Assembly (NCBI RefSeq): GCF_014695975.1
Contig: NZ_JACJPI010000090.1
Location: forward strand, 124,001-188,000
Reading direction: 5' to 3'
DNA length: 64,000 bases
Source: Leptolyngbya sp. FACHB-321
GTDB lineage: Bacteria; Cyanobacteriota; Cyanobacteriia; Leptolyngbyales; Leptolyngbyaceae
The position numbers were made by a program, and so were the translations under genes. Of this stretch, positions 1,797-59,916 are shown in pieces. Position 1 is the stretch's first letter. The number at the start of each line of letters is the position of its first letter. Under the pieces are notes generated by a model. It saw only the letters and a program-made list of their open reading frames with translations, was not told where the DNA came from and searched no databases.

Positions 1797-2972
1797 TTAC
1801 GCTTCAGCCAGGTGGAACGCGGCTCCCAGCCCTGCGCCCATTTCTGCTGGTGTAATCTTGCCGTCGTGGTTGATATCGATCGCATCGAAAACGGCATCCG
1901 TGCCCATCCATTCTTCGCGGGTGATGAAGCCATCCCCATCCAGATCGTAAGCGTGGAAGATATCTTCAGCCGCGTGCAACACAAATTCTTCGCCCTCCAG
2001 CGCTGCCAGCCGCTTTTCAAGCAATTTTTCGAGGGCGACTAGTGCTTTGGTAAAGCCTGTGATGCCTTCGTCGAGCTTTTGCGTTGCCATTGGGTCTTCA
2101 GCGTGGAGTTGGTCAAAGGTGGCTTTGTCGATCGTGAGCTTTTCCAGTTCTAAGCCAGCCGCTTTAGCAGGATCAAGCTTACGGGGCAGTTCCGCTTCAG
2201 TCGTTTGTAGCTCTTTAAGCAGGGCGGGCGAGATGGTGAGCAAATCGCAGCCTGCCAGTTCGGTAATTTCGCCAAGGTTGCGGAAGCTGGCTCCCATGAC
2301 TTCAGTTTTATAGCCAAACTTTTTGTAGTAATTATAGATCTGGGTTACAGACAACACGCCAGGATCTTCAGTCGCGGCATAGTCTTTGCCAGTGTTGGCT
2401 TTGTACCAATCAAGAATGCGTCCGACAAACGGCGAGATGAGAGTGATCCCTGCGTCAGCGCAAGCGATCGCCTGATGGATGCCAAACAACAGCGTGAGAT
2501 TGCAGTGAATGCCTTCTTTTTCGAGCGTTTCAGCCGCTTTGATGCCTTCCCAGGTAGACGCGATTTTAATCAACACGCGATCGCGCGCTACGCCTGCGGC
2601 TTCGTATTGAGCAATCAGGTCACGACCTTTGGCGATCGTCGCTTCGGTATCGTAGGAGAGCCGAGCATCCACTTCGGTTGACACGCGACCGGGAATAATT
2701 TTGAGAATGCGGAGACCAAAGGCAACGGCGAGGCGATCGAACGCCAGGGTCAAAATCGTTTCGTTGGGGGCATCGGCACCCGCATCTCGCTTTGCCCGTA
2801 GCAAGGTTTCATCCACAATTTCCTGATACTGGGGCATCTGTGCCGCTGCCGTAATCAGTGAGGGGTTGGTCGTGGCATCGCGTGGCTTGAAGGTTTCGAT
2901 CGCCTGAATATCGCCCGTATCTGCGACGACAACCGTCATCTCCCGCAGTTGCTCGAGTAGGTTCGTTGCCAT
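1797..2972 (-). CDS. tal: Transaldolase with C-terminal EF-hand pair
   Basis: Transaldolase moves a dihydroxyacetone unit between sugar phosphates in the pentose phosphate pathway. Residues 1 to about 330 match the bacterial TalB type, with TTNPSLI near residue 34 and the Schiff-base lysine in [12 protein letters not shown] (K136). The last 60 residues form an EF-hand pair with two canonical calcium loops, [12 protein letters not shown] and [12 protein letters not shown]. Total length is 391, against about 320 for stand-alone TalB. EF-hand transaldolases are known in cyanobacteria, but calcium control of the enzyme is inference. The start is ATG with AGGAG eight bases upstream. The gene precedes glgP on the same strand. 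Confidence 0.95.
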
Positions 2973-3293: not shown

Positions 3294-3764
3294 ATGACCA
3301 ACCGCATTAGTGCTGCGCTGACCCAAAGTGATCGTGAAGCCGTGATGGATGCCATTACCACTATTAAAACCAGACTACCGTTCTTGATTGATCTCACAGC
3401 CGAGGAGTGTAAAGCACTGCCCAAGATGGGCGATAAGAGTCGCGCATTTGTGAGCAAGGCGCTAGAGGTTGCCACGCAGAACCCGGACTTTTTGCCGCGC
3501 TCGTTTGACCTGGAGGAAATGCGGAAGGATGTGCAGTTGTTTGAGGCGATGTACCCGATTGTGATAGCGCTGGCACAACTGCAAGAACTGGTGGATGATA
3601 CGACCACAGCAGCCGGTAGTGAAGCGATGGCAGCAGCATTGCAGGTCTACAGCTACGCGAAGGCAAGTGGACAGGGTGCTGGCTTAGAAGGGCTGGTGGA
3701 AGAATTGGGTCAGCGTTTTGCCCGCAAGACACGCAAGCCAAAGCCACAAACTGCAAACGTCTAG
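3294..3764 (+). CDS. Uncharacterised small helical protein (156 aa)
   Basis: A 156-residue soluble protein with no signal peptide or membrane segment. It looks almost entirely alpha-helical, with acidic and hydrophobic helices such as QLFEAMYPIVIALAQLQELV around residues 82-101. The C-terminus is basic (ARKTRKPKPQT). The ATG at 3294 follows a GAGAGAAA purine run. I recognise a conserved bacterial hypothetical type but cannot name a domain, and no function can be inferred from its neighbours. The gene stands alone between the divergent tal gene and the repeat region downstream, and its codon use matches the housekeeping genes. Confidence 0.75.
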   Translation: MTNRISAALTQSDREAVMDAITTIKTRLPFLIDLTAEECKALPKMGDKSRAFVSKALEVATQNPDFLPRSFDLEEMRKDVQLFEAMYPIVIALAQLQELVDDTTTAAGSEAMAAALQVYSYAKASGQGAGLEGLVEELGQRFARKTRKPKPQTANV

Positions 3765-3866: not shown

Positions 3867-4153
3867 GAGCAAAAAGGTCGGCGCTTCGAGCAAAAAGGTC
3901 GGCACTTCGAGTTCGGAACTGCAACGATCGAGCAAAAAGCTCGGTGCTTCGAGTAAAAAGCTCGGTGCTTTGAGTTCGGAACTGCAATTGTCGAGCAAAA
4001 AGGTCGGCACTTCGAGTAAAAAGCTCGGTGCTTCGAGTAAAAAGCTCGGCGCTTCGAGTTCTGAACTGCAACGTTGGAGCAAAAAGCTCGGTGCTTGGAG
4101 TAAAAAGCTCGGCGCTTCGAGTTCTGAACTGCAACGATCGAGCAAAAAGCTCG
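3867..4153. repeat. 21-bp tandem repeat array, two alternating unit types, 13 full copies plus a partial
   Basis: Thirteen complete 21-bp units run without a gap, followed by a partial fourteenth. Type A reads gagYaaaaagSTCGGYRCTTc and type B reads gagttcKgaactgcaacgatc. The order is A A B A A B A A A B A A B and partial A. Because 21 bp is seven codons, each frame repeats with a seven-residue period. The plus frame open from 3718 to 4167 encodes SKKLGAS and SSELQRS heptads, and the minus strand is also open (APSFLLE-type heptads). The only in-frame start overlaps the end of the upstream gene and there is no ribosome binding site, so translation is doubtful. It could be a minisatellite, a protein-binding array or a small heptad-repeat protein. 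Confidence 0.9.
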
Positions 4154-4451: not shown

Positions 4452-7187
4452 ATGCCAGCTACAACTGCAAGCCTCCAAAAATTTGTTCAGTACTGCCAGC
4501 AGCATCTTAAAGGCGATGAAAAAGGCGAGTCGTAAAACTTTCTCGATCGCTTCTTTCAGGCGTTTGGACATGAAGGCGTAAAAGAAGCGGGGGCAACGCT
4601 AGAGCAACGGGTAAAAAAGGGCAGCAAAAAAGGCAATACGGGCTTTGCCGATCTGGCATGGCAGCCCCACTTGCTGATTGAGATGAAGAAGCGGGGTGAA
4701 GACCTCAACAAGCATTACGCGCAAGCCGTCACGTACTGGATGCAGCTACAGTGCCCCAGCTATGTGATGCTGTGCAACTTTGATGAATTTTGGATCTACG
4801 ACTTTCGTAAGCAGTCCGAAGAGCCGATCGAGAAGATTGCGCTAGCACATTTGCCCGATCGCATCGGGGCGTTCACGTTCATGAATCCAGAGTTGGAGCG
4901 TGCGCCCGTCTTTAACAACAATCTAGTGTCGGTGACGGAGAAAGCCGCCGGACGCATGGGCGAATTGCTGACGATGCTGACGAAACGATCGCGCGATGCG
5001 GTTGATCCGAAGACGGCACAGCGGTTTGTGCTGCAATGCGTGCTGGCAATGTTTGCTGAAGACCGGGATCTGTTGCCAAAGGATCTCTTTATTAGTCTGG
5101 TGCGCGAGTGTTTAGACCGTACTCGCCAGGGCAAACCCTCAAACACCTACGATATTCTGGGCAACCTGTTTCAGGAGATGAATCGACCGGGCATTGCTCC
5201 CGCAGGACGCTATCAGGGCGTGGACTACTTCAACGGTGGCTTGTTTCGGGAGGTGCATCCCCTGGAACTGACTGGGAAAGAACTAGAGCTACTGGAAGCC
5301 GCCGCCTCACAAGACTGGAAAGCAGTGCGCCCGTCCATCTTTGGCAACATCTTTGAGTCGGCGATCGGCAAAAGCGACAGCAAAGAACGTCATGCCCACG
5401 GCATTCATTTCACCTCTGAAGAAGACATTCTCAAGATCGTTCGCCCCACGATCACGCGCTATTGGGAAGAAAAAATCGCTAGCGCGACGACACTAGGCGA
5501 ACTCTCCACGTTGCAGACCGAGTTGCGTAACTACAAGGTGCTTGATCCTGCCTGTGGGTCGGGCAACTTCCTTTACATGGCGTATCTAGAGCTAAAACGG
5601 CTAGAGCGCGTACTGCAAGACAAGATTGATGCTCGTGGACGATCGGAGCGCGGACAGGGACAGATGAGCATTGGCTTTGTCACCCCGCAGCAGTTTTACG
5701 GCATGGACACAAATGCGTTTGCGGTGGAGTTAGCACGAGTGACGCTGATGATTGCCCGTAAAGTAGCGATCGACCTGTGCGATATTCACGACCAGCCCCC
5801 TCTACCGTTAGATACGCTGGATGAAAATATTGTTTGCAAAGATGCGCTGTTTACCGAGTGGGTGAAAGCGGACGCAATTATTGGCAATCCACCGTTTTTG
5901 GGTGGTTATCGAATGCGGCAAGAACTAGGAGACGAACAGACTGAGCACATTTTCGGAAAGTTTTCTGAAGTAAAAGATCAGGTAGATATTAGTAGTTACT
6001 GGTTTCACCTCGCTCACGATAATTTGGATGAGGCAGGTAGAGCAGGCTTTGTTGCTACAAATACTATTTGTCAAGGAAAGTCGCGCAGAGCATCACTAGA
6101 TTACATTACTCAAAACAGCGGACGTATTCATGACGCTATTTCAACTCAGGTCTGGTCAGGTGAAGCTAAAGTTCATGTCAGTATTGTTAATTGGTGCTAT
6201 CAAAAAGTACATAACTTCTACTTAAACGGTGAGGCTGTTCTATCCATAAACTCTTCACTAAATGCAGAGATTGATGTTTCAGGAGCATTAAGGTTAGGAG
6301 CAAATATAAATCATTGTTTTCAGGGTGTAATGCCAACAGGGAAAGGATTCATAGTAGCGCCTGAAAAGGCTCAGGAATGGATAAAAGCTAAACCTGAGAA
6401 TCAAGAAGTAGTCAAACCGTTCTTAGATGCAGGAGATTTAGCGAAATCTCCAAATGGGATTCCTACTCGTTGGATTATTGACTTTAGCAACATGGATATT
6501 GAAGAGGCAAGCGATTATAAACGACCTTTTGAGCACGTTAAAATCACTGTCAAACCAGAAAGAGATACTAACCGCGAACCCATTTTGAGAGAGAAGTGGT
6601 GGAGATTTAAGCGCACTCATGCAGCAATGAGAAATTCTATCGCTCCGTTACAAACCTGTTTCAGCATACCTGCTCACTCTAAGTGGTTTATCTTTCTACC
6701 TACTAGCGCAAGCTGGCTCCCCAACAATTCAACCAAAGTAGTTTCCTCCGAAGACTTCTACATTCTTGGCATTCTTACCTCAAACGTTCATCGCACCTGG
6801 GTAAAAGCACAAAGTTCCACGCTGAAAGGCGATACTCGCTACACTCACAACACCTGTTTTGAAACCTTTCCCTTTCCCCAAACCCCAGCCTCCACTCTCA
6901 TCACCGCCATCCGCACCACCGCTCAAGATCTCCACAACTACCGCAGCACCCAAATGGAGAAAAAACAGTGGGGCATCACCAAGCTCTACAACGAATACTT
7001 CCACGAACCCACCAGCCAACTCCACAAACTCCACGCTAAGCTTGATACCCTTGTCCTGCAAGCCTACCGCTTCAGCCCAGACGATGATCTGCTCGAAAAA
7101 CTGCTGACGTTAAACTTAGAACTAGCCGCAAAAGAAAAGCAGGGAGAAGCGATCGTTGGTCCCTGGGCACCGACACAATTCAGCTAA
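4452..7187 (+). pseudogene. Type IIG-like restriction-modification enzyme, interrupted by an in-frame TAA at codon 28
   Basis: The family combines a nuclease, an adenine methyltransferase and a target recognition domain in one chain. From ATG 4452 the frame reads into a GDEKGES block, meets TAA at 4533-4535, then continues in the same frame with NFLDRFFQAFGHEG, so a glutamine codon CAA probably became TAA. The nuclease region follows (FADLAW, then LLIEMKKRG, a D..ExK pattern). Methyltransferase motif I is VLDPACGSGNF (about residues 363-373) and motif IV is NPPF (479-482). The recognition domain follows, about 560-800. Without readthrough, the only restarts are a TTG or ATG near 4671-4683 that lose the nuclease aspartate, leaving perhaps a methylase only. 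A sequencing error is also possible. Base composition shifts inside the gene. Confidence 0.85.
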
Positions 7188-13799: not shown

Positions 13800-14891
13800 C
13801 TAAAGCTGAACCATCTCTGTATACTCCGTGAGCAATTCGTCGTAGGTGAGGCTATCAGATGACTCTTGTGGACTCCACAACAACTCAAACGCCATGAGGT
13901 TATCAGATGGCAGTGACGCTAGCTGTTCTAAGGCACTAGTTAGCTCTGCCTCGGTGCGAATCCGTTCAAAAAGCTGTTGATCGTGGGTTGTGCCAACTAA
14001 TAACGTCACCACGATATATGCTGCTGGATCTTCATCTGGATTCGGCTTGAACCCATCGCGTTTGTTGACTCTGCCACCTACATTGGTTAGCGTCTCAACA
14101 CTAAACTTACTACGTTCGGCGATCGAGCTTTTTTGAAAAAGGGCTTCTGCTTCCTCCCGACTTTTGACCGTTTGTGAGTCTGCCAACACGTGTGACCAGT
14201 TTTCTGGCATCCGTAACAGCGCTAAAGACGCTTCTTGAACCAGTTGTAGCAGTCCTTCTGGTGTGTCAGTATCAACCTCCAGGCTGAGGTCAGTCAGCTC
14301 AGACTGAATATCCCTTGCCACTGCCAGCAGTGCAACCTGAATTTTGCTAACGGTGACAATATCATTGTCACGTTCGTTCGCACCAGTGCTGCCCCGCATG
14401 GCTTTCACCACCAGAAACACAAGACCAAAGATGACCGCTGCCGAAACGCCTAGAAAGATGAGTCCAACAATCCAGCCAAGCCCAGAGTCATCAGTCGAGG
14501 CTTGCCCACTACTGGAGCTACCACTACGGTAACCATCGTTACGGTACGGGTCATTATAGACGCCAGGACCGACTGGCACGGGCACAATGACAGTGCCACC
14601 GCCACCATAGTTACGCTGGTAGGACGGGCTTCGATCGAATCCAGACGATCGTGAAGGGGATGAGCTTGAACCAGACGATCGTGAAGGGGATGAGCTTGAA
14701 CCAGACGATCGCGATGGGGACGAACGGAAGGAGCCACCACCACTGCGACCACCACTGCTGCGGGCAGAGGCTTCAGCATCGAAGGTCAAACGTGCGTTGG
14801 TTGTATCAGTGGAAGGGTGCAAAGTGATTGTGCTTGCCAGCAGTGTTCCGACAGCAATGGCACAATAGCGCTGAAGTTGTGAGTGTCTCAT
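13800..14891 (-). CDS. DUF1517-domain membrane protein with Ser-rich repeat region
   Basis: A 363-residue protein. It has an N-terminal hydrophobic signal (AIAVGTLLASTITL, about residues 11-24), then a glycine/serine/arginine-rich linker with a ten-residue repeat (SRSSGSSSSP, about 60-83). The membrane segment is WIVGLIFLGVSAAVIFGLVFLV (about 140-161), and the DUF1517 domain follows from about 175 to the end. The domain probably faces the opposite side of the membrane from the serine-rich part. It shares phrases such as EAEALFQKSSIAERSKFSVETLTNVGG with the shorter gene 212 bases downstream. Function is unknown. Confidence 0.85.
   Translation of the reverse strand: MRHSQLQRYCAIAVGTLLASTITLHPSTDTTNARLTFDAEASARSSGGRSGGGSFRSSPSRSSGSSSSPSRSSGSSSSPSRSSGFDRSPSYQRNYGGGGTVIVPVPVGPGVYNDPYRNDGYRSGSSSSGQASTDDSGLGWIVGLIFLGVSAAVIFGLVFLVVKAMRGSTGANERDNDIVTVSKIQVALLAVARDIQSELTDLSLEVDTDTPEGLLQLVQEASLALLRMPENWSHVLADSQTVKSREEAEALFQKSSIAERSKFSVETLTNVGGRVNKRDGFKPNPDEDPAAYIVVTLLVGTTHDQQLFERIRTEAELTSALEQLASLPSDNLMAFELLWSPQESSDSLTYDELLTEYTEMVQL
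14641..14729. repeat. 30-bp tandem repeat inside the DUF1517 gene
   Basis: Two identical 30-bp units (14641-14670, 14671-14700) and a third diverged unit encode the ten-residue Ser/Arg/Pro repeat in the linker. Each unit contains a CGATCG core. Exact identity of the first two suggests recent expansion. Confidence 0.85.
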
Positions 14892-21459: not shown

Positions 21460-23118
21460 TTACAAAGCCCAAATACTTTCAGCCATGCTTATCAAAGCTT
21501 TGTGTCTTCCTTGGAGAGAAGAAATATCCCAGTCTGGGTAATCACAGAGATCTTTGGTTATATCAAACGAAACCTTCTTATTACTTTTTCCGTAAACTTC
21601 TTTCTTTTTGTCAAATGAACTATTCTGAGCCTCGGAGTTTTTGGCACCACTAATTAATGCTAGATTGCCCAGCTTATGTAGCCATTCAGCGTGTTCTTTG
21701 TCTGTAAATCTTGCCTGCCAATAATCATTAAGACTGCGCTGAGGTAGAACGTGTTCGATAGTAATTCGTCCGTGATAGGTCTTATATACACTATCATCTT
21801 GCATCTCCTGATCCATTCTCAAAAGTACAGCTTTTAGAAAATTGACTCTGTTAGGAGATGGCTCATATATATCGTCGTCAAGAGAAGATATAAAGCCTAA
21901 ATTGTCAGCATGATCTTTAATAACATCAATTATTTCTTGAAACGTCTTTCCAGTATTAATAGCCACTAAAGCTGAGAAGCAAACTATTTCTCGCTTACTT
22001 CTCACCTGTTTCTTAAACCATCCATGCATGTAGCACTTCTCAAAAATTTGAACAAATTCCTTGAACTGTTTTTTGCTAATGCTGTTATCCTTGTCCATCC
22101 GATTGATAAAAGCCAAAATGGGCGGCACCCATTCATCTGAAAGCCGGGACAGAGAAGAAAAAACTTTGAATAATCCCATATCTTCAAATTCTAAGTCTTT
22201 AATTCTTTGATAATTACCTGCAGCCTTAAGAAGATCAACAGTAAATTTTATCGCTTGATTTGAATACACGCTTTTCAAAAGATCTGCATACTCATCCACC
22301 AAATTTTTAACTGCTCTATCTCGATCTTTCTTTTGAGATAATCTATTTAGCATTAAAAATTTATCCATATTTTCAACGCCAATGGTGTCCTCAATTCTGT
22401 CCCAATATTCCTCTACTTTTTCATGCCCTTCACCAGAATCTTCTGCTATTTCAAAAAGACTATTTTTGATTAGATCAGAGCCAGCTAAAGGCATTCCTCT
22501 TGTATTGAGAACATTAAACAGTCTGAATGAGGAGGTAAAATTATCTGTTTGAACGAAAACGACATAAACACGCTCTAATATATATCTTGCAAGACTGCAA
22601 AGAACAGCTTCGTCATCCGCTTTTGATAACAGATATTCCTCAATTGTTTTAAAGTTTTCTATAAAAAGTTTTTGAGTAGATGTTGGAGAATCAGGAAGAA
22701 AACTAGAATTCCCTTGCAAGATGTAATTGTAATAAAGGTCAAACTCCTTACTTCTAACTTTCAATCTAGGCTCTTGAGGCTTATCAGAGAAGTCATCAAT
22801 AGGCAGAACTCTTTTTTGCAGATTTTCTTTAGCTCTTTTATTTTGACTAATCAAATCTTTCATTTTGGCAAAAATAAGACTGAGTGTAGTTAGTCTCTGC
22901 TGCCCATCAACGATCTCATATGTATAATCACCTTTGTGTATACAAATCAAAGTTCCAATAAAATATTCTTCGTTTTCCTGACAAAAGCTATTGTATATGT
23001 CTTCTATTAATTGCTCTGTGTTACTCTTATCCCAGCTATATGGTCTTTGATAAGACGGAACAACGTACTTCTTGTTTTCTGTAAGAATATCGATAATCTT
23101 TGACTCTTTTGCCTCCAT
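21460..23118 (-). CDS. GmrSD-type DUF262/DUF1524 (HNH) restriction-like protein
   Basis: Single-chain GmrSD proteins are type IV restriction enzymes that use nucleotide hydrolysis to cut modified phage DNA. The N-terminal DUF262 (ParB-like) domain shows VPSYQRPYSW (about residues 20-29) and the DGQQRLTTL nucleotide-binding motif (71-79). The C-terminal DUF1524 HNH-like domain shows ITIEHVLPQ (about 450) and, later, LGNLALISGAKNSEAQNSSF. At 552 residues it is a complete fused enzyme and looks intact. Base composition is markedly AT-rich, lysine-codon rich and without HIP1 octamers, unlike the flanking alaS and cphA, which suggests transfer. The target is unknown. Confidence 0.85.
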   Translation of the reverse strand: MEAKESKIIDILTENKKYVVPSYQRPYSWDKSNTEQLIEDIYNSFCQENEEYFIGTLICIHKGDYTYEIVDGQQRLTTLSLIFAKMKDLISQNKRAKENLQKRVLPIDDFSDKPQEPRLKVRSKEFDLYYNYILQGNSSFLPDSPTSTQKLFIENFKTIEEYLLSKADDEAVLCSLARYILERVYVVFVQTDNFTSSFRLFNVLNTRGMPLAGSDLIKNSLFEIAEDSGEGHEKVEEYWDRIEDTIGVENMDKFLMLNRLSQKKDRDRAVKNLVDEYADLLKSVYSNQAIKFTVDLLKAAGNYQRIKDLEFEDMGLFKVFSSLSRLSDEWVPPILAFINRMDKDNSISKKQFKEFVQIFEKCYMHGWFKKQVRSKREIVCFSALVAINTGKTFQEIIDVIKDHADNLGFISSLDDDIYEPSPNRVNFLKAVLLRMDQEMQDDSVYKTYHGRITIEHVLPQRSLNDYWQARFTDKEHAEWLHKLGNLALISGAKNSEAQNSSFDKKKEVYGKSNKKVSFDITKDLCDYPDWDISSLQGRHKALISMAESIWAL

Positions 23119-23609
23119 TTTTCTGCCTCACATTAAGTTTGGGATGGTAATCAGAAAGAGTTCAATCGTCACAATGCTCTAATCTTAGTGCGGAAAAGCC
23201 TTTCTCAGTAGGCCTTTCAAGCGATGAACTAGATTTCTACAGTACAAATGTAACCTAGATTCTTTAAACATGACAGGTAGTAGTACTCTGCGCTCATCAT
23301 TTTCGTTAAATTCCCACTAACCTGTTGGCGCATAACTTTATATTAGATAGACTTTGTTCCTGCGCATTTACTTAAGTTAGAGAATTTAATTTAGACAGGC
23401 TCTTGTCGGCTAAATCTTTGACTGAGACAATTAGGCTGAGACATCGTACTCTAAAATCTGACCGCAGTGATTAGGCTATACTTTGCCTGCACATTAGCCA
23501 TGTGAAAGGGATAAAACCGGAAATTTAAGGTTTTTATCAGTGTGGTAAGGTCTTTGCTTCCCCTCCTATCTCTTGAATGGTTCTTCTTCCTGATCTTGAT
23601 TCGGCAGGA
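23119..23609. other. Intergenic between the defence island and the second repeat array
   Basis: These 491 bases are AT-rich like the GmrSD gene at first, then approach chromosomal composition. They should contain the GmrSD promoter. No gene or element end was identified. Confidence 0.4.
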
Positions 23610-23819
23610 GAGATCGCTACTTCCGTTCAAGCTGTCGTAACTAATGAAGAAGCGATCGTTACTTATGCTCAAGCGGTGGTAACTTCTGCACAAGCAATCG
23701 TTACTTATGCACAAGTTATCGTTACTTACGCTGGAGCGATCGTTAGTAATGATGAAGCTATGGTTACTAACGGTAAAGCTATGGTTACTAACGGTGAAGT
23801 TACCGTTAAGCACGTTTAG
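23610..23819. repeat. Second 21-bp tandem repeat array (nine full units)
   Basis: Nine 21-bp units and a partial tenth follow the pattern GCGATCGTTACTTATGCTCAA with variation. The frame open from ATG 23577 to 23819 (80 residues) encodes heptads AIVTYAQ, AVVTSAQ, AMVTNGK and similar. The minus strand is also open over the array, with heptads such as SNDRFFI. No ribosome binding site precedes the ATG. The sequence is unrelated to the array at 3867-4153, but the period is identical. It lies between the defence island and alaS. Whether it is a peptide gene or a structural DNA repeat is undecided. Confidence 0.88.
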
Positions 23820-23992
23820 GCAATCCAGCGTTCTGCCTGCGTATAAACCCGCTCTCCTGTTTCTCAGCAGTTGAGTTGCGGCTTCCGCTTCACTTTGTCA
23901 GGGCAGTTTGTCGGGATGTCAGGTGAAATGACAGAATCATGCGGCATCATTAAGATCAGCGAATAATTTCTTAGCAGATCCCACCACGTCTC

Positions 23993-26620
23993 ATGGCTAC
24001 TCCCTTCAGCGGCGCTCAAATTCGGCAAACCTTCCTCGACTTCTACGCAGACAAAGGGCACAAGATATTGCCCAGTGCTTCTCTAGTGCCAGAAGACCCG
24101 ACGGTGCTGCTGACGATCGCCGGGATGTTGCCGTTTAAGCCCATCTTTCTGGGGCAGCGTCCGGCTGAGTTTCCTCGCGCTACGACTTCGCAGAAATGCA
24201 TTCGCACCAACGACATTGAGAATGTAGGACGCACCGCACGGCACCACACCTTCTTTGAGATGTTGGGCAACTTCAGCTTTGGCGACTACTTTAAGTCGCA
24301 GGCGATCGCCTGGGCGTGGGAACTGTCTACTCAAGTCTACGGCTTACCGCCTGAACGTTTGGTCGTGAGCGTGTTTGAAGACGATGACGAAGCCTTTGCC
24401 ATCTGGCGAGATGAGATTGGCATTCCAGCGCATCGGATTCAGCGCATGGGCGAGAAAGATAACTTCTGGGTGTCGGGTCCTACGGGTCCATGTGGTCCGT
24501 GTTCTGAGATCTACTACGACTTTCATCCCGAAAAAGGTGATGAACACATTGATCTGGAAGACGACACTCGGTTTATCGAGTTCTACAACCTGGTGTTCAT
24601 GCAGTACAACCGGGATGCAGCAGGTAATCTGACACCGCTGGCAAACAAAAACATTGATACAGGCTTGGGACTGGAACGGATGGCGCAAATCCTCCAGAAG
24701 GTGCCCAACAACTATGAAACCGATCTGATTTTTCCCATTATTCAGAAGGCGGCGGCGATCGCTAAGCTCGACTACGCTACTGCTGACGCAACAACTCAGA
24801 TTGCGCTGAAAGTCATCGGCGATCACGTCCGTGCCGTGGTGCACATGATTGCCGATGGCATAGTGGCATCCAACGAAGGCAGAGGTTATGTGCTACGGCG
24901 GTTGATTCGGCGCGTCATTCGCTATGGTCGCTTGATTGGCATTGATGGTGAGTTTACACCCAAGGTTGCCGAAGCCGCGATCGCCCTGTCTGAGTCTGCT
25001 TATCCCAGCGTGCGCGCGATGGAGCGGACGATTAAAGTCGCCCTACAACGAGAAGAAATCAGCTTCTTGAAAACGCTCGATCGGGGTGAGAAGCTCCTGG
25101 CAGAGGTCATTGAGCAAATGGGCGCGGGTGGACAAATTTCTGGCAACGATGCCTTCACGCTTTATGACACCTTCGGCTTTCCGCTAGAGCTAACCGAAGA
25201 GATTGCGGCTGAGAAGGGGTTGACCGTTGATGCCAAAGGCTTTGAAGCTGAGATGGAGCAACAACGGCGGCGCTCGCAACTAGCGCATGAAACGATCGAC
25301 CTCACCGCTCTAGGCACACTGGATCATCTGGCAGACCATATTGAGCAAACCGAGTTTTTGGGCTATACCCAACCAGCAACCGACGCAGCAGTGCAGGTCT
25401 TAATGGTCAATGGCAAGCCCAGACAAACCGTTGAGGCTGGCACCGATGTACAGGTCGTGCTGGATAAAACGCCGTTTTATGCTGAGTCGGGTGGTCAGAT
25501 TGGCGATCGCGGCTATCTTTCTGGTGACGATGTCCTGGTGCGCATTGAGGATGTGCAAAAAGAATCTGCCTTCTTCGTCCACTACGGTCGCATTGAGCGG
25601 GGCACCTTGCATACAGGCGATGCCGTCACCGCGCAAATTGATCTTGCCTGCCGTCGTCGCGCCCAGGCACACCACACCGCTACCCATCTCTTACAATCGG
25701 CACTGAAAAAGCTGGTAGACGACAACATTTCTCAAGCGGGTTCGTTGGTGTCCTTCGATCGCCTCCGCTTTGACTTTCACTGCCCTCGCCCGCTTACACC
25801 CGACGAACTCCAACAGGTTGAAGATCAGGTCAACACCTGGGTTGCCGAAGCGCATCATGCTCAAACATCAATCCTACCGATCGCAGAAGCAAAAGCCAAA
25901 GGTGCGATCGCCATGTTTGGTGAAAAATACGGCAGCGAAGTCCGCGTACTGGACGTAGCAGGCGTATCAATGGAACTGTGCGGCGGCACCCACGTGAGCA
26001 ACACGGCTGAAATTGGTCTGTTCAAAATCGTCTCCGAAACAGGCGTAGCAGCCGGCGTTCGTCGCATTGAAGCCATTGCGGGACCTGCCGTGCTGGAGTA
26101 CCTGAATGTACGCGATGCCGTTGTGCGCGACTTGAGCGATCGCTTTAAGGTTAAGCCTGAAGAGATTGGCGATCGCATCACTACCCTGCAAACCGAACTC
26201 AAAACTACTCAAAAGCAACTCGAAACCGTCAAAGGTCAGCTTGCTCTTGCCAAAGCCGATAGCCTGCTGGCACAAGCCGAAGCTGTGGGTGAGTTCCACA
26301 TTCTGATCGCGCAACTCGATGGCGTTGACCCCGAATCGCTTAAAACGGCTGCGGAACAGCTTCAGCAAAAGCTGACCAACGGTGCGGTTGTGCTTGGCTC
26401 TGTGCCCGAACCCGATAAGGTTAGTCTCGTCGCTGCCTTTAGCCCTGCTGTAGTTAAAAAAGGCTTACAGGCTGGGAAACTAGTGGGCGCGATCGCCAAG
26501 CTCACAGGCGGCGGCGGCGGCGGACGACCCAACCTCGCTCAAGCAGGCGGACGTGATGCCAGCAAGTTACCTGAAGCACTCGAAGAAGCGAAGAACCAGT
26601 TACGCTCTGGACTGAGTTAG
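23993..26620 (+). CDS. alaS: Alanyl-tRNA synthetase
   Basis: Charges tRNA-Ala. The 875-residue class II enzyme has the N-terminal [20 protein letters not shown], the motif [32 protein letters not shown] and an editing domain with zinc ligands in [12 protein letters not shown] and [14 protein letters not shown] coiled-coil and C-Ala region ends in [15 protein letters not shown]. Length is typical. The start ATG matches the conserved N-terminus. Confidence 0.97.
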
Positions 26621-35297: not shown

Positions 35298-35351
35298 GAG
35301 TCAGAAGAAGGGCTAAAAGTTTAGTCAGTAGTCGATAGCCGAAATCAACTT

Positions 35352-35372
35352 AAAACTCAAAACTCAAAACTT
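35352..35372. repeat. Heptamer repeat AAAACTC x3 before ndhD3
   Basis: AAAACTC AAAACTC AAAACTT occupy 35352-35372 in the ndhF3-ndhD3 spacer, 18 bases before the ATG. It belongs to the short tandem heptanucleotide class. Confidence 0.75.
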
Positions 35373-38319: not shown

Positions 38320-38351
38320 GAGAAGAGTAAGGGGAGAGGAGTTGGTTTAGC

Positions 38352-38450
38352 GGTCAGCGGTCAGCAGTCAGCAGTCAGCTCTTTAGCCTTTCCCCTTTCC
38401 CCTTTCCCCTCCAGCCTTTTCCACTCCCTACTCCCTACTCCCCACTCATC
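38352..38450. repeat. STRR-like heptamer arrays before cupS
   Basis: Three successive heptamer families occur: GGTCAGC/AGTCAGC x4 (38352-38379), CCTTTCC x3 (from 38387) and CTCCCTA x2-3 (about 38427-38447). The last ends six bases before the cupS ATG. Short tandemly repeated repetitive heptanucleotides are a known cyanobacterial repeat class. Confidence 0.85.
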
Positions 38451-57345: not shown

Positions 57346-59916
57346 ATGGCTGTAATTACCACTGCCCTGCACACAGAAATGCAGCAGTCCTATCTGGAAT
57401 ATGCCATGAGCGTCATTGTGGGACGCGCGCTGCCCGATGTACGCGATGGCTTAAAGCCAGTGCATCGACGGATTCTGTATGCCATGCACGAATTGGGTTT
57501 GACCCCCGATCGTCCCTATCGTAAATGCGCTCGCGTTGTAGGGGATGTACTCGGTAAGTACCATCCTCATGGCGATCAGGCAGTGTACGATGCCCTGGTG
57601 CGTCTGGTACAGGATTTTTCGAGCCGCTACCCGCTCTTAGGTGGGCATGGCAATTTTGGCTCAGTAGACAACGATCCCCCTGCTGCCATGCGGTATACCG
57701 AAACCCGACTGGCATCGATCGGCAACGAAGCACTGCTGACAGAGATTGGCGAGGCAACCGTTGATTTTGTTGGCAACTTTGACAACTCCCAACAGGAACC
57801 AACCGTTCTGCCTGCCCAACTGCCGATCTTGTTGCTTAACGGTAGTTCGGGCATTGCCGTTGGTATGGCGACCAACATTCCGCCCCACAACTTGGGAGAA
57901 ATCGTGGATGGGTTGGTGGCACTAATTGATCACCCCGATCTACCAAATGCCAAGCTCTTTGAACTGATCCCTGGACCCGACTTCCCGACAGGTGGCGAAA
58001 TTATTGGCACTGAAGGCATTCAGGAGGCATATGCCACAGGCAAAGGTAGCATTCCCGTACGGGGCGTGGCGCAGGTGGAAGAACTCCAGATTGGGCGCGG
58101 ACGACACCGACGCACGGCATTGATTGTCACCGAACTGCCGTACCAGGTAAACAAAGCTGCCTGGATTGAAAAGATGGCAGAGCTAGTCAATCAGGGACGG
58201 TTGGAAGGCATTGCGGATCTGCGCGACGAGAGCGATCGCGAAGGCATTCGGGTTGTCATTGAGCTACGGCGGGATGTGAGTCCCCAAAAAATTCTCAACA
58301 ATCTCTACCGTCAGACCGCCTTACAGTCAAACTTTGGCACCATTATGCTGGCACTTGCCGATGGGCAACCTCGCCAGATGCCACTGCGGGAACTACTCCA
58401 ACAGTTTTTGGGCTTTCGAGAAGAGACGCTCACCCGTCGTTATCGTCATGAATTGACTCAGGCAGAAACGCGCCTCCACATTGTGGAAGGACTTTTGCTA
58501 GCACTGACCAATTTGGATACGGTGATCGACATTCTGCGAAACGCACCTGATGGCAGCACTGCCAAAATGCAGTTTCGAGAACAGCTTGACCTGAGCGATC
58601 GCCAAGCCGATGCCATTCTCTCGATGCCGCTGCGACGGTTAATTGGCACCGAGCGGCAAAGCCTGCAAACCGAATTTGACGAGTTGACTGCCCGGATGCG
58701 AGAACTCCAACGCTTACTGGGCGATCGGCGCGAACTACTCAAGGTGCTGAAAAAAGATCTGCGCTCGTTGAAGAAGAAATATGCTGATCCACGACGCACC
58801 AGGATTATTGCCAACGGGAGTCGGGAATCGGGAGTCGGGAATCGGGAGTCGGGAGGTAAGAGTCAACAGTTAGAGTTGGGTGAGCAACTGACGATCGACA
58901 GCCCCCCCCTCGATACTGATGCGCCCCCCCATGAAGCCGAAGTTGAAGAAACAGTCGTTGAACTTACCCAGCGTGGTTACATTCGCCGCATTACCCCTAA
59001 GGTCTTTCAGCGTAGCCAGCAAAAAGCAGTAGACAAACCAACGCAGGTATTAGACGAAAGTGATGATTTTGTTGCCCAAACGGAGTTTGCGATCACCGGA
59101 CAAACGTTAGTAGTACTGACTCGCAGCGGCAAGGCGTATCCTCTCAGCATCAGTGATGTACCGCAAGTAGCAGGCAAGTCACGGGGAGTACCCTTAGTCA
59201 CATTGCTTCCACCCTCGGCGCAGAGTGATCCTGCCTCTGTTATTGGCTGTTTTGTGCTGCCCGAGACGCTAGAAGACACAGCGCTCTTGCTAGTAACGCA
59301 GCAAGGACGCATCAAACGGTTGCCTTTAGCAGAATTGGGTGAGTTAACAGGACGAGGACTCACCGTGCTGAAGCTAAAGCCAGACGACCAGCTAGCCTAC
59401 ATCAATTTGACAGAGGTCGGTGATCAGCTCGTGCTGGCAACGGCAGGTGGGCGGTTACTGCGGTTGGTCGTCAATGATGAGCAACTACCTTTACTGAGCC
59501 GAGTCGCGCAGGGCAATCTTGCTATTCGCCTGCGGAAGCAAGAAAAGCTAGTCGGTTACACGCTCATTTATCAAGGTGACGATCTGCTGCTGCTGTCCGA
59601 GCAGGGCTACGCCAAGCGACTGGCGATCGGCACACTCCGTCTCTCCACTGTTGGCGATCTGGGTACACAATCCGTTCGCTTTACTAACAAGACTGATGCA
59701 CTCGCTGGCATGGTAGCAGTGACCCCCGATACTGCCGCTACGCTACTAACCAGCACTCATCGTATGGCACGGCTAGTTGGTAGTGAGGTGCCATTAAAGG
59801 GGCGCGATGACCCGGGCGATCGCCTCTTGCAACTCGACTCAGACGAGCGCATTATGAGCCTGACGCTCCCCAAACTACCCCTCTCAGCGCTAGAGGAAGA
59901 CATTACAGAACTGTAA
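57346..59916 (+). CDS. Type IIA topoisomerase subunit A (GyrA/ParC family)
   Basis: An 856-residue DNA-cleaving subunit. The catalytic tyrosine is Y117 in AAMRYTETR. The quinolone-site helix reads [16 protein letters not shown], with glutamine at the usual serine site. Residues 1 to about 490 form the breakage-reunion core. Then comes a variable insert with five heptamer-coded copies (about 490-505), followed by beta-propeller blades ([14 protein letters not shown]-like, [15 protein letters not shown]). I do not see the GyrA box QRRGGKG, so it may be the ParC-like second subunit rather than true gyrase. GAAGGAACG lies before the ATG. Confidence 0.88.
58816..58856. repeat. Heptamer repeat GGGAGTC/GGGAATC inside the topoisomerase gene
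   Basis: Five heptamers (GGGAGTC, GGGAATC, GGGAGTC, GGGAATC, GGGAGTC) and a partial sixth run from 58816 in frame, encoding a Gly/Ser/Arg/Glu/Asn stretch between the catalytic core and C-terminal propeller. This is the intergenic STRR type found inside an essential-type gene. Confidence 0.85.

Follow-up and report, generated by a model that had tools for sequence, protein, structure and literature searches.

Two tandem arrays in a stretch of 64,000 nucleotides from Leptolyngbya sp. FACHB-321 (contig NZ_JACJPI010000090.1, positions 124,001 to 188,000; the whole stretch is referred to as the window) share a 21-bp period and have no unit sequence in common. The second of them, at 23610-23819, is open on both strands and translates into seven-residue repeats. 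The locus therefore raises the questions of whether the array is a gene, whether the common period is a coincidence, and what such an array might otherwise be for.

Structure and surroundings of the array

The array (23610-23819, forward strand) consists of ten 21-bp units: the nine clear ones counted in a preliminary description made from sequence alone, plus a degenerate tenth with TAG at its end. The last units (23757-23810) are position-specific and the best conserved. When the array is compared with itself, identity stands at 0.70 for lag 21 and 0.71 for lag 42, the mean across lags 1-69 being 0.25. At lag 7 it falls to 0.18 and at lag 14 to 0.17, so the repeat is genuinely one of 21 bp rather than an array of heptamers. 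In a single first-order Markov shuffle of the window, no region passed the threshold used at any period from 10 to 63. Elsewhere in the window there are short 7-bp tandem repeats of heptamer type (35347-35371, 38349-38447 and 58815-58855) and a 30-bp tandem repeat within a long ORF (14641-14720).

Upstream of the array, on the reverse strand, lies a GmrSD-type restriction gene (21460-23118; Pfam E-values 5.8e-39 and 3.3e-27), and downstream, on the forward strand, lies alaS, encoding alanyl-tRNA synthetase (23993-26620). The first 60 bp 3′ of the array (23811-23870, forward strand) form a conserved tail, common to the alaS copies of other genomes and to a second copy (L017) in the related genome G002. 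Both arrays had been described as bordering accessory or defence-type genes, which is half right here, with a restriction gene on one side and a tRNA synthetase gene on the other; the supposed tie to defence genes gives way to one with two small uncharacterised gene families, M and K. The window's other array (3867-4152, forward strand; period 21/63 bp), which is of the K-linked type, is indeed unrelated in sequence to that at 23610-23819.

Copies in related genomes

Matches to the array were found in 12 of the 58 genomes searched, FACHB-321 included, with three to 12 per genome within the genus. A DNA model built from 26 copies gave matches in all seven genomes of the genus and, across the class, in 20 of 291 genomes, and units of this family (AVVT) are also present in some other genera and families. 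The usual copy comprises variable units followed by the position-specific last units (translated SNDE, TNGK, TNGE and VTVK), beyond which the flanks diverge, except for the ~60-bp tail in one subgroup and stretches common to copies at the same gene. Two further full-length copies of the array, each with an in-frame TAA, are found in FACHB-321. Relatives also carry other 21-bp arrays (L054 and L051; heptads RALKTND and AVITNGA).

In all six genus genomes in which alaS was located, an array lies upstream of it in the same orientation, at a distance of roughly 0.1 to 2.4 kb; this array is inherited, while the surrounding genes were gained or lost. Comparison of the window copy (L001) with those of L012 and L009 revealed no gaps in the array, against two and five, respectively, in the adjoining flank. 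Between L001 and L012 the variable units are 67% identical and the flank 88%, indicating that the units evolve faster, while the reverse is seen between L001 and L009 (array 80%, flank 67%). At four loci (L006, L007, L009 and L017) the gene directly 5′ of the array is one that we take to be Uma2-like, and its presence in this position twice in one genome (L007 and L017) suggests that gene and array were duplicated together.

Spacing is kept more strictly than sequence. Among 69 of the 78 matches to the DNA model, which is blind to reading frame (the first 70, minus one opposite-strand duplicate), 65 have the length of the model without gaps and the other four are off by 6, 6, 1 and 1 bp; of 27 pairs of neighbours, 26 keep the same phase modulo 21. 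An alignment of 26 copies (A2), originally found by protein search, contains no gaps in 159 columns. The 21-bp spacing is thus strictly kept while the unit sequences turn over.

Coding capacity

Both strands are open, as the preliminary description had it: an 80-aa ORF spans the array on the forward strand (23577-23819), with heptads such as AIVTYAQ and AVVTSAQ, and a 120-aa ORF without a Pfam match runs on the opposite strand (23451-23813). Open frames arise easily in 21-bp repeats, because only seven codons recur in each frame, and neither ORF is judged to be a gene. Weak matches of the 80-aa ORF to a grass-antifreeze beta-roll in Pfam (E 0.17) and to PHROGs (best E 0.015) were under any cut-off and were taken to reflect repeat composition; the array translation had no match in phages.

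The proposal that the heptads are made as peptides is not borne out by the copies. No start or stop codon common to copies was found among those of relatives. In-frame stops are frequent, occurring in 16 of the 33 copies (out of 48) that were chosen for their 3′ cap, with only the last eight units of each tallied, and the units 3′ of these stops stay the best conserved. Nor are stops avoided, since in 13 nearest pairs from A2, which holds 26 of the 33 capped copies, eight changes made or removed a stop against 10.3 expected. For 59 arrays next to M genes, the least interrupted frame is on the sense strand in 32 cases and on the antisense strand in 27, which shows no strand preference. In the comparison of synonymous with nonsynonymous change that was suggested earlier as a check, the synonymous fraction of changed codons in the heptad frame, in the same 13 pairs, was 0.31 against 0.22 expected (z 3.7). 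This signal for the heptad frame is weak and is not explained away; it lies far short of what a protein under selection would show.

A small heptad-repeat protein that is translated, with many of its copies broken by now, would account for this synonymous excess, for a hydrophobic-hydrophobic-Thr pattern seen across several array families, and for the fact that, of the five rare indels and phase shifts, three are divisible by 3. Set against copies that share neither start nor stop, carry their best-conserved units after stops and show no preferred strand, such a protein is highly improbable, and the array at 23610-23819 is not convincingly coding. Open frames over arrays of this kind are accordingly a warning against gene annotation.

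Arrays adjoining M and K genes

Eleven array copies adjoin the same small gene, M, a member of a multicopy family of uncharacterised small proteins of about 130 aa that start MSRKKRT. M genes were found in 21 of the 58 genomes and, with another family member as query, in 63 of 291 genomes of the class, at 1-13 matches per genome holding the family; 18 of 20 genomes with AVVT arrays have them. From 117 matches 90 loci were fetched, 88 of which were used. The best upstream period (11-49 bp considered, within 600 bp) was 21 at 50 and 42 at 27 of these 88 (77 in total). Lag-21 identity was at least 0.55 upstream of M in 52 of 88 cases, against nine of 631 control regions upstream of long ORFs, and reached this value downstream of M in none of 63. 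Once 12 members that had initially been found by way of their own array were excluded, 65 of 76 loci still had a best upstream period of 21 or 42. FACHB-321 itself has four M genes, including one at G000:C87:19316-19714 that carries its own array and one (L276) without a clear array. The single M match in a plasmid collection (Kovacikia) has a lag-42 identity of 0.75 upstream.

M proteins that are >70% identical have a unit sequence in common, while for pairs <60% identical the similarity between units is no higher than that between column-permuted units; the period outlives the unit sequence. The M protein has no relative in Pfam, NCBIfam or PDB at a meaningful E-value, belongs to no recognisable DNA-binding family and matches no known type III toxin (Pfam, NCBIfam, PADLOC, PHROGs). 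A scan of viral contigs with one M protein identified no relatives.

The second family, K (LPKMGDK), likewise multicopy and uncharacterised, has proteins of about 155 aa and is present in 22 of the 58 genomes and 64 of the 291 genomes of the class (1-11 matches per genome holding the family). Its member in the window (3294-3764, forward strand; 156 aa) ends about 100 bp before the array at 3867-4152. Among the matches listed, the best downstream period was 21 or 42 at 24 of 30 K loci, with a lag-21 identity of at least 0.55 at 20; three other loci of these 30 have an array upstream instead. Both K genes met in blind stretches had arrays alongside. The window's K protein is predicted to be all-helical, and an AlphaFold2 model from this one sequence has six helices (mean pLDDT 74), a putative helical bundle for which no PDB fold was found at E 0.001 or better. 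Searches of Pfam, NCBIfam and PDB yielded no relative of the K protein at a meaningful E-value and no recognisable DNA-binding family, and a single-protein scan of viral contigs no relatives. The only plasmid match to K (L345; 49% identity), on pTs417 of the gammaproteobacterium Candidatus Thiodictyon syntrophicum, is without an adjoining 21-bp array. Other ORFs in this part of the window are one of 391 aa (1797-2972, reverse strand), possibly a transaldolase with C-terminal EF-hand motifs, and, beyond the array, one of 838 aa with an NPPF motif (4671-7187, forward strand) that may encode a DNA methyltransferase of restriction type.

Arrays of period 21 or 42 therefore have a preferred side, upstream of M and downstream of K. 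This was re-examined in 18 loci of each family taken from previously unused genomes (12 more of each being left out). The best period was 21 or 42 upstream of M at 10 of 18 loci (eight strong) and downstream at five of 18 (none strong), so that the M link holds in these genomes, more weakly than in the first set. For K the figures were 15 of 16 downstream (11 strong; two of the 18 loci had too little downstream sequence) and five of 18 upstream (two strong). The two families also co-occur: of the 63 and 64 genomes of the class (among 291) that hold M and K, 44 are common to both (Fisher p 7e-22, uncorrected for shared ancestry).

Solo arrays and the frequency of period 21

Copies of the same unit also stand alone, the alaS array among them. 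An M or K gene lay within 900 bp of two of 11 arrays found blind and of none of the nine arrays of the K-type set, and by gene search alone three of 19 K-type loci had an M or K gene; arrays are predicted by genes much better than genes are by arrays. The array at 23610-23819, located at alaS, is one such solo copy, from an M-linked array family. A 21/42-bp array with a lag-42 identity of 1.0 was also observed beside a PRTRC-system gene on a plasmid of Photobacterium toruni (L347, 2468-2731; NZ_CP101696.1), where the annotation gives a hypothetical protein on the opposite strand; the translated array is similar to the heptads of the array at 23610-23819.

Enrichment of period 21 over other periods was examined in two genomes. 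In 720 kb of the relative G002, eight of 20 arrays outside long ORFs have a base period of 21 or 42 (including L176, which also shows a strong heptamer sub-period), eight a period of 7 and four another period. In 720 kb of FACHB-321 outside the window (740 kb with L169, left out as it holds part of a known copy) there are three arrays outside long ORFs, whose periods are 16, 40 and 57, so that 21 is not represented; with a more sensitive autocorrelation, 400 kb of this genome yielded a single weak region of period 21. Random 600-bp windows from four sampled genomes, pooled, reach a lag-21 identity of at least 0.55 in 1.0% of cases, compared with 0.07% each for lags 20 and 22. The enrichment envisaged in the preliminary description is thus present in the relative and absent from the sampled part of the genome itself. 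Its broader point, that one period shared by two unrelated arrays is no mere coincidence, is supported: period 21 (or 42) is seen again in numerous array families that adjoin members of the two gene families. The shared period is meaningful, and 21 or 42 persists where unit sequence is no longer recognisable; the link to gene families explains why unrelated arrays of one genome share one period.

Relation to known repeats and systems

In ParR/parC, the direct repeats of StbA and plasmid iterons, tandem sites at helical spacing lie beside the gene for a small binding protein. The M and K loci, though not the array at alaS, resemble these in having helically spaced direct repeats beside a small gene; they differ in mostly lacking a plasmid setting and a recognised DNA-binding domain, array binding being only putative here. 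No homology of M or K to the known families of ParR, StbA or iteron type was found in Pfam, NCBIfam or PDB at a meaningful E-value. In type III toxin-antitoxin systems, repeats that act as RNA immediately precede the toxin gene, and a terminator separates the two. M-type arrays also lie upstream of a small gene, whereas their period is shorter, the K-type array is downstream, and the scans made gave no match to a toxin family. The heptamer repeats of cyanobacteria (STRR) have a 7-bp period, which the alaS array, with its low lag-7 identity (0.18), lacks.

TAACTGA repeats are likewise intergenic tandem repeats in cyanobacteria (PMC4679880, in the part available), and K arrays share with such heptamer repeats, besides intergenic position, a weak 7-bp sub-period. 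Much closer are the bacterial tandem repeats of Subirana and Messeguer (PMC8161180), which, in the portions of that article seen, have a constant size of 20-21 nt and variable sequence, occur also in Cyanobacteria, are mostly non-coding, form several families per genome and have no assigned function; two helical turns are noted there, and a polymerising protein or small RNAs are proposed. The present arrays agree in size (20-21 nt, or 40-42 as doubles), in their variable units and in being non-coding, the weak synonymous excess aside. The satellites are described in the same portions as species-specific, with an exception for close relatives, whereas AVVT units extend across a genus (7/7 genomes) and to a few genera. 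The array class is thus known, as constant-size satellites, and what is new is the tie to two uncharacterised gene families, together with the preferred side, the 42-bp variants and the solo copies of gene-linked families, as far as can be judged from those portions, in which the words ‘upstream’ and ‘small protein’ are absent. No literature tying such arrays to a gene family was found among titles and opening lines of abstracts or in the available parts of PMC8161180, PMC6749651 and PMC4679880; Subirana and Messeguer (2020, J. Bacteriol.) may name partners.

Possible function

We tentatively regard the array as a non-coding satellite of constant period, quite possibly a row of putative binding sites for the small protein encoded beside such arrays. 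As 21 bp corresponds to two helical turns, the units would face one way, and the sites would line up along a single side of the helix. Many molecules of the protein from the adjoining gene may then assemble side by side, and solo arrays with the same unit may be served in trans by a gene-linked copy, in this genome by the M gene at G000:C87. The purpose of such an assembly can only be guessed at, and might be nucleoid organisation, segregation or autoregulation. In favour of this reading are the strict spacing, the M and K links and their recurrence in new genomes, the co-occurrence of the two families, the M genes of 18 of 20 AVVT-array genomes and a period that outlasts unit sequence. Excess dyad symmetry over column-permuted units is also seen in 18 of 37 non-redundant M arrays and seven of nine K arrays. 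The alaS array itself has no dyad excess (z 0.4) and no adjoining M gene, and a 10.5-bp sub-period was not seen in M arrays. Further points against the reading are the many arrays without an M or K gene nearby, the M gene L276 and the Thiodictyon relative of K that have no such arrays, the fast change of variable units at alaS in one of two comparisons, and the absence of a recognisable DNA-binding family in either protein.

Several features could also be accommodated by an array that acts as RNA, a repeat transcript beside a small-protein gene that resembles a type III toxin-antitoxin or serves as an RNA sponge. The array is upstream of M on the sense side, and folding is better than that of column-permuted units in M arrays (mean z -1.5 to -1.6) and K arrays (-2.6 and -1.8). 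However, both strands of M arrays fold alike, as DNA with dyads would, folding in the AVVT family is only slightly better than in shuffled sequence (mean z -1.1), K arrays are downstream of their own gene and the window has no Rfam match. Known type III antitoxin repeats are also longer, and we consider this reading unlikely. The two-turn period, the dyad excess and the modest folding of both strands favour phased protein sites instead.

It is distinctly unlikely that the arrays are passive satellites, made and kept by slippage and unequal recombination, with dispensable small genes sitting where they are tolerated. Most arrays do lack an M or K gene nearby, and variable units at alaS turn over fast in one of the two comparisons, but passive repeats would not be expected to keep to one side of a gene (downstream of M in 0 of 63, upstream of K in three of the 30 listed) or to a period of 21 or 42, seldom other, that held in new genomes. 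Array and gene might instead be a mobile unit, with solo arrays as remnants or non-autonomous copies, as their dispersal (up to 13 M and 11 K matches per genome holding the family) and the recurrence of array, tail and upstream Uma2-like gene at a second place in G002 (L007, L017) would allow; given an alaS copy that is in place in six of six genomes, this is improbable.

If sites for the neighbouring protein are what the arrays provide, a further step, conceivable though doubtful, is that M and K are readers of 21-nt satellites. Together with the arrays they would form a two-component nucleoprotein scaffold of an undescribed kind, in which each array has its own unit and solo arrays are further anchor sites. 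In such a scaffold, members of two separate families of small proteins would line up next to one another on arrays with a phasing of two turns. Two co-occurring multicopy families with side-preferring arrays are, in any case, candidate partner proteins for satellites that have been without a function, and since they offer such candidates, the satellite question becomes open to simple binding and deletion tests.
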